A stretch of 64,000 bases of DNA from Ignavibacteriales bacterium (GTDB lineage Bacteria; Bacteroidota; Ignavibacteria; Ignavibacteriales; Melioribacteraceae). The position numbers were made by a program, and so were the translations under genes. This document shows, piece by piece, positions 1-4,072 of the stretch. The stretch lies in the NCBI GenBank assembly GCA_016177735.1, contig JACOUS010000023.1:1-64000 (forward strand), written 5' to 3'. Positions within the stretch are counted from its first letter, which is position 1. Each line of letters opens with the position of its first letter. The notes under the pieces were generated by a model. It did no database searches. It was not told the DNA's origin and saw nothing but the letters and a program-made list of their open reading frames with translations.

Positions 1-1
1 C

Positions 2-70
2 TGTATTTTATCCGAAATTGAGGCATTGAAGAAATGCTATCAATACACGGATAATAAAATTGTAGGTTAA
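2..70 (+). CDS. possible 3' end of a gene truncated by the window edge
   Basis: An open frame enters from the left edge and ends at TAA 68-70, giving 22 residues that start CILSEIEALKK. It may be the tail of an upstream cassette gene, because cassette genes usually stop just before an attC site. It is too short to assign a family or to be sure it is coding. Confidence 0.25.
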   Translation, partial: CILSEIEALKKCYQYTDNKIVG

Positions 71-130
71 AGCTGTCATATATTTTTTTGTCTCAAGCCT
101 GCTTGCAACAGGCAAGTTCGGATAAAACAC

Positions 131-146
131 TTAACGTTATATTGCT
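131..146 (+). other. integron-like core site upstream of the FRG gene
   Basis: GTTATATTGC (136-145) directly precedes the start codon of the FRG gene. Its exact reverse complement, GCAATATAAC (885-894), lies just after the stop codon of the same gene. In integron cassettes the R'' box after a gene pairs with the TTRRRY core at the start of the same cassette, which is the arrangement seen here. The rest of the attC to the left is not clear; only a weak GCCTG/CAGGC stem at 97-113 is visible. Confidence 0.45.
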
Positions 147-881
147 ATGAAAACAAAGACGAAATATTTAGTAGAAGAAATCACAAACTTCTTAGGATTT
201 ATCGAAATACTCGATTCTTTTGGAGATATAAATCCATTCGAATTAAGTTTATTTCGAGGTCAAGATTGTGATGAGCCATTGCTACCCAAATTGGCTAGAT
301 ACAAAGGCATTAGGGATAAGAGAAGATTTGAAAATGATTTATTTAAAAAATTTAAGAAACATTCTCTTTCTTACATAAATAATTCTTTTAATAGCGATTG
401 GGATTATTTATCATTGGCCCAACATCATGGTTTACCAACTCGTTTACTTGATTGGACTGAAAATCCATTAATTGCGTTATGGTTTGCAGTTAAATCCGAT
501 AATATTAAAAGTGAATATGCCGTTGTCTGGCAATTTGATCCTCCAACAGAAGATATAATTGGTTCAGATGAGCAAGCTTCTCCATTTGAAGGAGAAAGAA
601 CCAAAATTTATAATCCTAATCATATTTCCGATCGTATAAAAGTTCAATCTGGTTGGTTCACTGCTCATAAATATATTGCCAAGAGTAGGCGATTCGTTCC
701 TCTTGAGAAAAATATTAGATACAGTGATTGTTTATTTAAATTTATTATAGCAAAAAAATTATTTCCTGAAATTAGAGTTAAGTTGAATCACATGGGAATA
801 AATGCTTCGACAATATTTCCTGATTTAGATGGTTTATGCCAATACTTAGCTTGGTCTAATCTCAAAGCGGAGAGATTCTAA
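147..881 (+). CDS. FRG domain-containing protein
   Basis: A 244-residue protein with the FRG domain, named for its Phe-Arg-Gly motif. FRGQ lies at about residue 37, and the second conserved block LAQHHGLPTRLLDWTENP lies at about 90-107, followed by a hydrophobic helix. There is no signal peptide or membrane segment, so it is probably cytoplasmic. The biochemical activity of FRG proteins is not established; they often occur among phage-defence and mobile genes. The ATG lies 2 bases after a core-site-like sequence with no obvious Shine-Dalgarno, as in cassette genes that depend on an outside promoter. The gene is more AT-rich than the glycosidase genes, consistent with acquisition. The family call is firm; the function is unknown. 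Confidence 0.85.
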   Translation: MKTKTKYLVEEITNFLGFIEILDSFGDINPFELSLFRGQDCDEPLLPKLARYKGIRDKRRFENDLFKKFKKHSLSYINNSFNSDWDYLSLAQHHGLPTRLLDWTENPLIALWFAVKSDNIKSEYAVVWQFDPPTEDIIGSDEQASPFEGERTKIYNPNHISDRIKVQSGWFTAHKYIAKSRRFVPLEKNIRYSDCLFKFIIAKKLFPEIRVKLNHMGINASTIFPDLDGLCQYLAWSNLKAERF

Positions 882-887
882 AACGCA

Positions 888-1054
888 ATATAACAAGCGT
901 CTCAAGCGGAACGCTGTAGTCGATCGTAACATTTGTAGTTATAGTTTATTTGGTTTTTTGTTCAGCATTTGTGCAAGTGAATTTTATAATCAATAAATCA
1001 AGTTGTTAGTAGCGGACACTTCGTGGCGTCCGCTTAAACGCAACGTCGTTCATC
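888..1054 (+). other. attC-like recombination site following the FRG cassette
   Basis: The R''-like box ATATAAC (888-894) is followed by an L''-like arm AAGCGTCTCAAGCGGA (895-910). This pairs with TCCGCTTAAACGC (1029-1041), leaving C903 unpaired, and ends in GTT at 1048-1050. The left arm resembles the start of Vibrio attC repeats. Between the arms lies a longer variable stretch that includes a perfect AGCGGAC/GTCCGCT stem (1011-1017 and 1028-1034). At 167 bp it is longer than a standard attC. Confidence 0.5.
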
Positions 1055-1127
1055 GGACACGCCTTCGGCGTAAACGTCCGATGAATGGCACCTTGGTTCA
1101 CGTCACGCCTACGGCGTGCCGATGAAC
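1048..1127 (+). repeat. gene-less cassette body with nested hairpins
   Basis: GTTCATCGG (1048-1056) and its reverse complement CCGATGAAC (1119-1127) bracket about 60 bp without an ORF. Inside are CATCGGAC/GTCCGATG (1051-1058 and 1075-1082) around ACGCC-TTC-GGCGT, and a second ACGCC-TAC-GGCGT stem (1105-1117). Matching ends are what a very short cassette would show. No gene is visible between 882 and 1188. Confidence 0.4.
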
Positions 1128-1180
1128 TCTCGACTCCACCGGACGGATTGACCGCCGGTGAGTCGAAGGCGCCATTATAC
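1121..1180 (+). other. 60-bp attC-like site upstream of the PIN gene
   Basis: R''-like GATGAAC (1121-1127) and R'-like ATTATAC (1174-1180) flank a 15-bp stem formed by 1130-1146 and 1152-1166 with a 5-base loop (1147-1151). C1137 and A1143 are the only unpaired stem bases and both lie in the left arm. On the bottom strand these would be an extrahelical G and T, the recognition pattern of attC sites for integron integrases. The R' core reads ATT rather than GTT. TTATACGC next to it matches GCGTATAAC after the PIN gene. Confidence 0.6.
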
Positions 1181-1188
1181 GCATAAAT

Positions 1189-2199
1189 ATGGATGTAATC
1201 TTAGATACAAATATTTTACGAAAAGACTTTAAAATGACTTCTAAACTATTTGAAGCATTTCTTGTCTTTCTAAAGAAAACGGATTCTCGTCTTGTTCTAC
1301 CTGAAATAGTTGTTGACGAGATATTATCACTTTACAAAAGAGAGTTAGATGCGCTAAACAAAAAATATTCTGACGTAGTTAATAAAATATCAAATACGTC
1401 ATTTATAACAGCGCCAAAGCAAAACTTAAAAATTGATTTGGAGAAAGAAGTAACAGAGTTTAATAAACTAATATTGCATCCACCAAATATTTATCCTACT
1501 GTGATAATACCAAATAAGTCGGAACATCTTAAGGAAAGTATAAACATATTACTTTCTGCCCAGAAACCAGCTTCAGAAAAACGAAATGAGTATAGGGATG
1601 TTTTGATTTGGTTATCAATAAAAGAACATCTCAAAAAAAGAAAAAAACTTAATACTTCTTTCATTTCAGCAAATACCAAAGAGTTCAGTGACGAAAACAA
1701 TCAATTAGCACCGACGCTCATTGAAGAAGTAAATAAGCTCGGTTCTTGTCTAAATTATTATCCATCACTCGAAGAATTCTTGAAATGTAACGCTGATAAA
1801 ATTGAATTTATAGATGAACAATGGATTAATAATAATCTTGATTCTAAAGAAGTAATCAGACTGCTATCAGATACGCTAGAAAGAAGAGATTATAAAATAA
1901 CTCAATACTTAGAACGTAGGGAAGACAATATTACCGGAGAAATTGATATAAATGAGATTGATTATTCAGTGGACGATTATTTTGTGATTGATATTGACGA
2001 AGAGAATATCTTCTTACATCTAAATTTATTTTGCACAGTGGAAGTTGAATATTATATAAAGGAGTATTACGATCTTCTTTATGGGGAGTATGAAAAAGAA
2101 AGACATAGAAAACAAATTGAATTCTTAGCTGATTTTTCAGTAGAAATAGTTGACAAGGAAATTGTAGGAATAGAGCTAGATGATTGGGATTTTGCTTAA
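1189..2199 (+). CDS. PIN domain-containing protein
   Basis: A 336-residue protein that begins with the PIN-domain signature MDVILDTNIL. Asp6, Glu44, Asp137 (YRDVLIWLS) and Asp168 are placed like the acidic metal ligands of PIN nucleases. The N-terminal half is therefore a likely RNase fold; the C-terminal half (about 200-336) is acidic and unassigned. It resembles the longer stand-alone PIN proteins (DUF4935 type) more than short VapC toxins, and no antitoxin gene is next to it. It lies in the second cassette-like unit: ATTATACGC (1174-1182) precedes it and GCGTATAAC (2204-2212) follows its stop. No clear Shine-Dalgarno is visible. Nuclease activity is inferred, and the target is unknown. Confidence 0.8.
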   Translation: MDVILDTNILRKDFKMTSKLFEAFLVFLKKTDSRLVLPEIVVDEILSLYKRELDALNKKYSDVVNKISNTSFITAPKQNLKIDLEKEVTEFNKLILHPPNIYPTVIIPNKSEHLKESINILLSAQKPASEKRNEYRDVLIWLSIKEHLKKRKKLNTSFISANTKEFSDENNQLAPTLIEEVNKLGSCLNYYPSLEEFLKCNADKIEFIDEQWINNNLDSKEVIRLLSDTLERRDYKITQYLERREDNITGEIDINEIDYSVDDYFVIDIDEENIFLHLNLFCTVEVEYYIKEYYDLLYGEYEKERHRKQIEFLADFSVEIVDKEIVGIELDDWDFA

Positions 2200-2205
2200 A
2201 GTTGC

Positions 2206-2273
2206 GTATAACCAGCGTCTGCCAATGACCACTAAGGAATCATAGGCAGAAGTATGAGACCGAGCTGTTTAGC
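2206..2273 (+). other. possible attC-like site following the PIN cassette
   Basis: R''-like GTATAAC (2206-2212) follows the PIN stop by 6 bases. CAGC and TCTGCC (2213-2216 and 2218-2223) pair with GCTG (2264-2267) and GGCAGA (2245-2250), and GTTTAGC (2267-2273) may be the R' core. The length of 68 bp suits an attC, but the right arm is degenerate, so this is weaker than the site at 1121-1180. Confidence 0.4.
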
Positions 2274-2568
2274 TTGAGTATGTAGACGTTTTAATTGTTG
2301 TTCTTTGACAGACAGACCAAAAGATAATCTCAACAAGCTATTGCCGATATATCTGTTTGATTGCAAAAGCAGCAACCAAACCTCTTTAATCCGTCAAAAG
2401 AACGCCGGAGTAAATAAAAAGTCGCCGTTTTTTTTTTGCGGGTTGATCTTTAGTAACTTGAGACAACCTCAGCACATCGTTATCTGCAAATAAAAAAATC
2501 ATTACTTCAACCTAACAAACCCCGATACCGATGCGTCATACATATGAACAAAAGAGGGTATAAATAAA
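2274..2568. other. AT-rich gap with no supported gene
   Basis: The gap holds a T9 homopolymer near 2425-2440 and no conserved protein-like frame. GAGGG at 2553-2557 is a plausible ribosome binding site for the TTG start of the next gene. No promoter could be recognised with confidence. Confidence 0.4.
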
Positions 2569-3231
2569 TTGAACAGAATAATAAAATTTGGAGAGGATGT
2601 AGAAGGGTATGACATCCCTATTCTAAATGAGCGGGAAATAAGAGCCGCATCGGGAATATTATTTTTAATGATGTTTATTTCTATTCTGGTTGCTATTCTT
2701 AAAAATGATTTTGTAATGCTGAAGTATGCCACTACAATATTTTTTACGGATATCGCAATACGGGTTTTTGTTAATCCAGAATTTTCTCCTTCATTGATAA
2801 TAGGGCGTTTAATTGTAAGGAATCAAGTCCCCGAGTATGTTGGGGCACCGCAAAAAAAGTTTGCCTGGATGATCGGTGTATTTTTGTCGGCTACAATGTT
2901 TATTCTGCTTGTGATAGTAAATTCATACAGCCCGATAACGGGTCTTATCTGCTTCATTTGCCTTATATTTTTATTCTTTGAAGCGGCGTTTGGTATTTGT
3001 CTGGGATGTAAATTTTATCCGATCTTTTATAAAGAAAAAGCTAAATACTGCCCCGGTGAAGTTTGCGATATAAAATCAAAACAAGATATTCAAAAAACAT
3101 CCGGGGTTCAGATGCTTATTGTTTTTGTATTTATTGCATACATTTTTCTTGCGGTGTTTTTATTCAATGATAATTTTAGTAAAAAACCATATGACTTGTT
3201 TGGAATTGAGAGTTCTGCACAATCTGAATAA
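2569..3231 (+). CDS. DUF4395 domain-containing membrane protein
   Basis: A 220-residue inner-membrane protein of the DUF4395 family, recognised by FGEDVEGYDIPILNEREIRA at the N-terminus, the RLIVRNQ.PEYVGAPQKKFAW block at about 83-105 and a Cys-containing segment (CLGCKFYPIF and CPGEVC). Hydrophobic segments lie at about 27-45, 50-66, 101-120, 122-146 and 183-203. DUF4395 proteins have no proven function; they often neighbour thioredoxin or rhodanese genes and carry conserved cysteines, which suggests a redox role. The start is TTG 2569 with GAGGG upstream. A short ATG frame at 2544 stops after 7 codons and is not the gene. It is not clearly co-transcribed with its neighbours. Confidence 0.8.
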   Translation: MNRIIKFGEDVEGYDIPILNEREIRAASGILFLMMFISILVAILKNDFVMLKYATTIFFTDIAIRVFVNPEFSPSLIIGRLIVRNQVPEYVGAPQKKFAWMIGVFLSATMFILLVIVNSYSPITGLICFICLIFLFFEAAFGICLGCKFYPIFYKEKAKYCPGEVCDIKSKQDIQKTSGVQMLIVFVFIAYIFLAVFLFNDNFSKKPYDLFGIESSAQSE

Positions 3232-3440: not shown

Positions 3441-3782
3441 TTGGCTGTGCTAATTACAATTGTAGAATTGCCCGAATATATAAAAAGAGCTGAGAAGCTG
3501 TTGTTAAAAGAGGAGAGGGATGAGTTGCTCTATTATTTATCCCAGAATCCCAAAGCCGGAACTTTAATGCAAGGAACCGGAGGCATAAGAAAAATGAGGT
3601 GGGCTTCTAAAGGTAAGGGCAAAAGCGGCGGTTCAAGAGTAATTTATTTTTTCTATAATGAAACCATTCCACTTTTCTTGTTAACTGTATTTAGCAAGAA
3701 TGAAAAAATTAATTTGAGTAAAGCCGAAAGAAATGAATTAGCCGAATTGGTAAAGGAATTAATAAAAAATTACAAGAGGTAA
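3441..3782 (+). CDS. higB: RelE/HigB-family type II toxin
   Basis: A 113-residue protein of the RelE/ParE superfamily, HigB2-like group. It has ELPEYIKRAEKLL at the N-terminus, a central G(T)GGIRKMRWA block, then the basic GKGKSGGSRVIYFF strand and LLTVFSKNEK, which match the family order. Such toxins are ribosome-associated mRNA endonucleases. The frame opens with TTG 3441; GTG 3447 is an equally possible start, and neither has a well-placed Shine-Dalgarno. The stop is 2 bases before the antitoxin start, so translation is probably coupled. Toxin-first order is typical of higBA. The pair lies between two copies of the fucosidase 3' end, which suggests it arrived as a unit. Family firm, start uncertain. 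Confidence 0.85.
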   Translation: MAVLITIVELPEYIKRAEKLLLKEERDELLYYLSQNPKAGTLMQGTGGIRKMRWASKGKGKSGGSRVIYFFYNETIPLFLLTVFSKNEKINLSKAERNELAELVKELIKNYKR

Positions 3783-3784
3783 TA

Positions 3785-4072
3785 ATGAGCTCTGCATATA
3801 AAAGTATTAGCAAAGGATTAAAGGAAGCGATTGAGTATTCAAAAGGGGATACTAAAGAGGCAAGAGAATTTAAGCCCCAACACATTGACGTAAAAAAGCT
3901 AAGAGAAAAAATTGGAATGAGCCAGCCTAAATTTGCTGCATCGTTTGGAATAAGTCTTGGAACCTTGCGCCATTGGGAGAGAGGTGACAGATATCCCCAA
4001 GGACCAGCTTTGATATTATTAAATTTATTGTCTAAAGATCCTAATACTGTGTTAGAAATTTTGTATACGTAA
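3785..4072 (+). CDS. higA: HigA-type helix-turn-helix antitoxin
   Basis: A 95-residue protein with an XRE-type helix-turn-helix at about 40-75: KLREKIGMSQPKFAASFG, then ISLGTLRHWERGDRYPQGPA, the typical LRxWExGxRxPxGPA antitoxin recognition helix. The N-terminal 35 residues are likely to hold the toxin-binding part. It should neutralise the upstream HigB-like toxin and repress their shared promoter. It follows the toxin stop by 2 bases. No terminator is seen before the convergent fucosidase gene that ends at 4158. Confidence 0.88.
   Translation: MSSAYKSISKGLKEAIEYSKGDTKEAREFKPQHIDVKKLREKIGMSQPKFAASFGISLGTLRHWERGDRYPQGPALILLNLLSKDPNTVLEILYT

Follow-up and report, generated by a model that had tools for sequence, protein, structure and literature searches.

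Cassettes and sites at the left end of the window

The window analysed here is the whole stretch of 64,000 nucleotides, bases 1-64000 of contig C27, so that base 1 of the window is also base 1 of the contig. Its left end carries, all on the forward strand, a recombination-site repeat (1-136) into which the contig edge cuts, followed by two cassettes with a folded, gene-less unit between them. The first cassette (137-1048, from T137 to G1048) encodes an FRG-domain protein of 244 aa (147-881) that matches the PADLOC candidate defence family PDC-S15 with 282 bits. Its R' GTTATATTGC (136-145) is paired with R'' GCAATATAAC (885-894), which starts 4 nt past the end of the gene at 881, and the attC of this cassette, attC1 (885-1048), has the 3' end ACGTCG. 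The junction of a circular FRG cassette would be attC1 joined to its own TTATATTGC. The second cassette (1175-2304) starts with TTATACGC (1175-1182) and encodes a PIN-domain protein of 336 aa (1189-2199; PIN_12); the partner GCGTATAA lies at 2204-2211, within the 9-mer TGCGTATAA at 2203-2211 (+1028), just past the PIN stop. The site behind the PIN gene (2204-2304) is the left ~100 bp of an attC type that recurs in C9, C19 (two), C7 and C2. The shared repeat stops at 2304, and in C19 the same type extends for ~480 bp up to the next cassette, so the site in the window, and with it the right end of the cassette at about 2304, looks truncated.

The first-pass annotation of this DNA had proposed an integron-type cassette array in which each gene starts beside the reverse complement of its own downstream site. 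Both pairs of core-like sequences that it quoted are present, and the arrangement is true of the FRG and the PIN cassettes. Of 300 shuffled 6-kb sequences, 57 contained a partner of the FRG 8-mer at some position, so that a single pair is weak evidence. This is one of two points in favour of dismissing the array as a chance set of inverted repeats, a single 8-mer partner not being rare in AT-rich DNA; the other is that Rfam gave nothing above threshold. The arms of attC1 were paired as well in 46 of 2000 shuffles, and those of the site 2204-2304 paired no better than chance (548 of 2000). Against the chance reading, R'/R'' complementarity bounds not only the two cassettes of the window but also those at eight other loci of the genome, where the partner again lies behind the first gene (chance 1 to 26 of 300 for each, counting a match anywhere), and R'' immediately follows the first gene or operon in all nine first cassettes tested.

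Homologues of attC1 point the same way. One, at 84% identity, is found in a named Melioribacter MAG (L146) next to a complete integron integrase with attI, where the order is intI, attI, one cassette and then the attC1-like site ending ACGTCG|TTATATGG; a second, at 75%, is in contig C44 of the same genome as the window. With a homologous attC beside intI and attI in a relative, and with intact integrases in the genome itself (see below), we regard a chance origin as extremely improbable. A genuine, if short, integron cassette array of an Ignavibacteria-type bacterium begins the window, and the proposal of an array stands on the cassette-end signature, the apparently folded attC sites, the attC1 homologue and two intact intI genes. 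That such an array lies outside the usual hosts is true as well, but it is not new, as integrons have been recorded before in Chlorobi and Ignavibacteriae (PMC9024848).

The gene-less unit

The unit of 126 bp at 1049-1174 is a multicopy insertion placed exactly at a G|TT junction, in the window at G1048|T1175. Excising it in silico restores the canonical junction ACGTCG|TTATACGC, and removal leaves a plain G|TTATA junction at all three loci where it occurs, namely the window, C44 (94% identity) and C10 (98%). The C44 copy occupies the same place as that in the window, while the C10 copy lies inside an attI on the other strand; each of the three copies has TATAA on one side, and no target duplication was seen. 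The region 1049-1175 folds from end to end (-44 kcal/mol, z -7.7). No match to the unit was found in the plasmid collection.

A hairpin noticed earlier at 1121-1180, with a 15-bp stem and the bulges C1137 and A1143, is sound (-17.8 kcal/mol, z -4.8, not equalled in any of 200 shuffles; arm pairing equalled by 2 of 2000 shuffled pairs), and it belongs to the inserted unit, within which it covers 1119-1174. The sequences that had been taken to bracket a gene-less member of the array, GTTCATCGG (1048-1056) and CCGATGAAC (1119-1127), are likewise present, but an insertion describes the unit better than an ordinary array member does. It is either a gene-less cassette with an A at its crossover or a palindromic PATE-like element. 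The complementarity of GTTCATCGG and CCGATGAAC, the presence in the stem of both bulges expected in attC and the precise insertion at G|TT at three loci argue for a cassette, and gene-less cassettes are already known (PMC11014356, PMC6557892). On the other hand, the unit ends A|TT and not G|TT, it folds as a single structure, its C10 copy sits on the opposite strand within an attI with TATAA always on one side, and TTCATCGG-type repeats occur within it too. We therefore put an ordinary gene-less integron cassette, as opposed to a foreign palindromic element derived from IS200/IS605, at slightly below even odds.

The 136-bp site at the contig edge

The repeat at 1-136 has its crossover at G136|T137; its ends (1-29 and 85-136) are conserved and its middle is variable, and it contains an imperfect inverted repeat (3-20/113-130). 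The genome holds seven copies, all of which diverge at AACG|TTA into different cassettes, and across 396 genomes of the phylum the site was found only in this genome and two relatives. We considered it as an attI and set this aside because it follows IS91-like sequence or an RYYYAAC box, and the attI of the lineage differ (..AGTAATAG|TTR). Window 1-136, which the contig edge interrupts, probably forms the attC-like right end of a recombinase/IS91-like unit present in multiple copies.

One could instead take it for the terminus of an IS91-like transposon with insertion specificity for the G|TT of att sites and not for an integron recombination site at all. The site does lie 3' of the C-terminal end of an IS91-like transposase in C9a, C29 and the relative G034, and the left ends of the putative unit adjoin attI in C17, C18, C25 and C36. 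We nevertheless think this rather unlikely, given the attC-like imperfect inverted repeat with conserved arms and variable middle, the GTTCAAC that the C9b site follows, which is the exact complement of GTTGAAC at the left end of the unit, and the sites in C9b, C7 and C31, which have no transposase and still head a cassette. The 136-bp site may also be both, that is, the attC of a transposase-carrying cassette.

Integrases and attI sites

Two integron integrases with the IntI-specific domain were found in the genome, in C25 and C17 (431 and 427 bits, cut-off 265), as open frames of 334 and 332 aa. Named relatives of the genome's integron integrase are from Melioribacter sp. (81% identity), a member of the Ignavibacteriota, from Stygiobacter electus (72%) and from other Ignavibacteria or Bacteroidetes MAGs. 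Both genes lie at contig starts and are followed by an attI-like ..CAGTATAAGTAATAG|TT or ..CAGTATAAGTATAAG|TT, after which comes a unit that begins with TTGAACGAAGCC. An attI of the ..AGTAATAG|TTR type, with a G|TT crossover, is found behind intI in C17, C25 and relatives, and not at the window itself. In C25, 35 residues of the TTGAACGAAGCC unit can be read as the N-terminus of a tyrosine recombinase (our own reading). The same type of left end also terminates contigs C18 and C36, and the assembly breaks there would be accounted for by such a unit if it occurs in multiple copies. A search with the recombinase N-terminus across 58 relatives gave matches in the genome itself only, at 1e-5, and therefore no full recombinase/IS91-like unit was seen. 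The missing part upstream of the window is probably intI (deleted or whole), attI and a recombinase/IS91-like unit that would end in the 1-136 site.

The array had originally been described as having no visible integrase. This holds at most locally, since the array starts at the contig edge and the DNA upstream of it lies outside the assembly, and the genome as a whole has two complete integrases at other contig edges and at least eight deleted copies. As two intact intI genes are present, the missing integrase is largely an effect of the assembly, and we dropped an integrase-less array as the final statement. A CALIN is defined by two or more attC sites that lack a neighbouring integrase; the window contains attC1 and the truncated last site in an array that abuts the contig edge.

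An intI above the cut-off was detected in 25 of the 58 genomes searched, this one included. Where attI was readable, the gene is co-oriented with the cassettes and attI lies ~90-190 bp past its stop; an intI oriented towards its cassettes is known from Treponema (PMC3607928).

Dispersed platforms with a deleted integrase

At least eight loci of the genome carry one shared deleted integrase, of which the promoter-like start and the first codons are kept and the core is removed. The shared deletion is present in C9b, C31, C7, C22 and C18, and its left part in C9a, C42 and C29; upstream of the C9b, C7 and C31 sites the deleted intI measures ~270 bp. All copies retain the TTGACA start, a -10-like hexamer and the first ~15 codons. 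The motif TTGACA-N17-TAAATT (10/12 consensus) points towards the cassettes, as a consensus match only, four such matches being found against 2.3 expected in shuffles. Every member of the deletion series (C9a; C29; C9b, C7 and C31; C22, C42 and C18) has the promoter and leader at its left and, at its right, an att site with cassettes, and six of these loci have a verified first cassette. Together with the others we count ~14 att-led loci (C27, C44, C9 (two), C7, C29, C31, C22, C42, C2, C17, C25, C18 and C36), a number obtained by similarity and by eye in a draft assembly in which several contigs end in these repeats and C12, C40 and part of C41 are masked (N). The anatomy of these loci, the copies of their parts and the exact divergence at G|TT can be observed directly in the contigs. 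The small arrays headed by most of these loci often hold defence-like genes, and among those of the first cassettes are FRG (PDC-S15), HEPN, TIR and a methylase with a CfrBI-type restriction enzyme, and the second gene in C44 resembles SIR2 by eye. IS91-like sequence adjoins some of the platforms, but in relatives the left ends of the platform copies differ.

Four platforms with identical 136-bp sites carry different first cassettes, suggesting exchange or insertion at G|TT after or together with copying of the platform, although gene conversion or recent duplication could also keep the four sites alike. A comparable case is the closed genome G048, in which one full-length intI was found, along with five attI-type sites and a matching R'' at four of these. 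Its copy at 137084 comprises 246 bp of the integrase end and the attI region, with one mismatch relative to the home copy, and diverges 4 nt beyond the crossover into a different first cassette. G048 is closed, yet has several attI-type sites, and therefore the pattern is not merely an artefact of draft assembly.

We read the scattered loci as integrase-deleted satellite platforms, probably served in trans. An intact IntI would place cassettes into the docking site of every satellite and take them out again, with G|TT as the point of exchange, and the retained intI promoter would drive the first cassette; as intI and the cassettes share their orientation in this lineage, this promoter reads towards the cassettes. 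Recombination itself, trans action, promoter use and the route by which platforms are copied are what we infer. An alternative is ordinary decay, in which the scattered arrays are old integron copies that have lost their integrase (CALINs) and in which exchange has ended. Each of the eight deleted integrases is a dead gene, truncation has affected several of the sites (the first attC of C29 and window 2204-2304), and CALINs are commonly viewed as degraded integrons (PMC9024848). We consider decay unlikely in view of the identical 136-bp sites that precede differing first cassettes on four platforms, the near-identical 246-bp attI copy with a different first cassette in G048 and the two intact integrases still in the genome. 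The best explanation as a whole, to which we assign a probability of roughly 0.75, is that window 1-2304 is the right part of a small array in a Melioribacteraceae-like genome of the Ignavibacteriota, in which an intact IntI would act in trans on dispersed, integrase-deleted satellite platforms. The wider proposition, that a single lineage within the Ignavibacteria keeps a multi-site integron and not one long, mostly silent array, has in our estimation about an even chance. In it one or two intact integrases would serve dispersed deleted platforms in trans, and each platform, with its promoter, leader and docking site retained, would present one or a few cassettes, often of defence type, near a promoter.

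Several further loci were noted during this work. More cassette arrays occur at contig edges in L051 (C43) and L067 (C19:77800-80817), with very long attC (~480 bp in C19). The start region of intI, TTGACAAAAAACCGAACTTGAATTAA.., is also found as solitary pieces of 46 to 100 bp before other genes (L024, reverse complement, around C13:1463-1508, C15:83419-83464 and C28:124148-124247), and these look like a reused promoter fragment. The relative G050 has three attI-type platforms with cassettes (L289, L290 and L291), and no integron integrase passed the search there. In G001:C89 (L280) a broken intI still leads an attI and a cassette, and a second, intact integron locus is present in C111 of that genome.

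Comparison with known systems

Class 1 integrons have a conserved left segment before variable cassettes and a sul1-type right segment. The loci described here resemble them in the conserved left segment with variable cassettes after it, and differ in that this segment is a deleted intI or the 136-bp site, that no sul1-type right segment follows and that the orientation of intI is opposite. With the sedentary chromosomal integron of the Treponema type (PMC3607928) they share intI, attI, attC-bounded cassettes and transcription of intI towards attI, but there is one long array there and many dispersed platforms in one genome here. Like CALINs, which an IntI is able to mobilise in trans (PMC12444791), they are cassette arrays without a neighbouring working integrase; unlike CALINs, which are defined without an attI or platform, they keep the leader of a deleted intI, an attI or a conserved lead site, and their platform sides are copies of each other. 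Delta-attI gene cassettes (PMC12901181) and attG insertion (Loot et al. 2024, as cited in PMC12444791) are similar in that attI-derived sequence occurs off the home platform and IntI acts at non-classical sites. Those cases involve resistance cassettes and integration into genomic sites other than att, whereas here the intI end with attI recurs as a new chromosomal platform.

More than one intI occurs in 22% of complete genomes that bear intI, and four complete integrons in one genome are notable in K. pneumoniae; ~14 att-led loci in one genome are well above these surveyed figures (PMC9024848). The usual picture is one platform with one array, integrase-less clusters being decayed leftovers. 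If our reading is true, many short arrays behind kept integrase starts would offer another means of having many cassettes available for expression at the same time, and a trans-acting IntI would become testable in a natural setting. No description of such a genome was found in the literature searched, which is not proof of absence.

Genes to the right of the array

Immediately right of the array lies a gene for a DUF4395 membrane protein (2569-3231) that is not recognisable as a cassette. It is followed, 1.1 kb right of the array end, by a RelE-like toxin gene and then an HTH antitoxin gene (NadS/MqsA-like) at 3441-4072, and no cassette ends were found for this pair. Most of the remaining window (4158-63696) appears by eye to be devoted to glycan degradation, with fucosidase-, hexosaminidase-, GH92- and mannan-related enzymes, TonB-type outer membrane proteins and C-terminal sorting domains.
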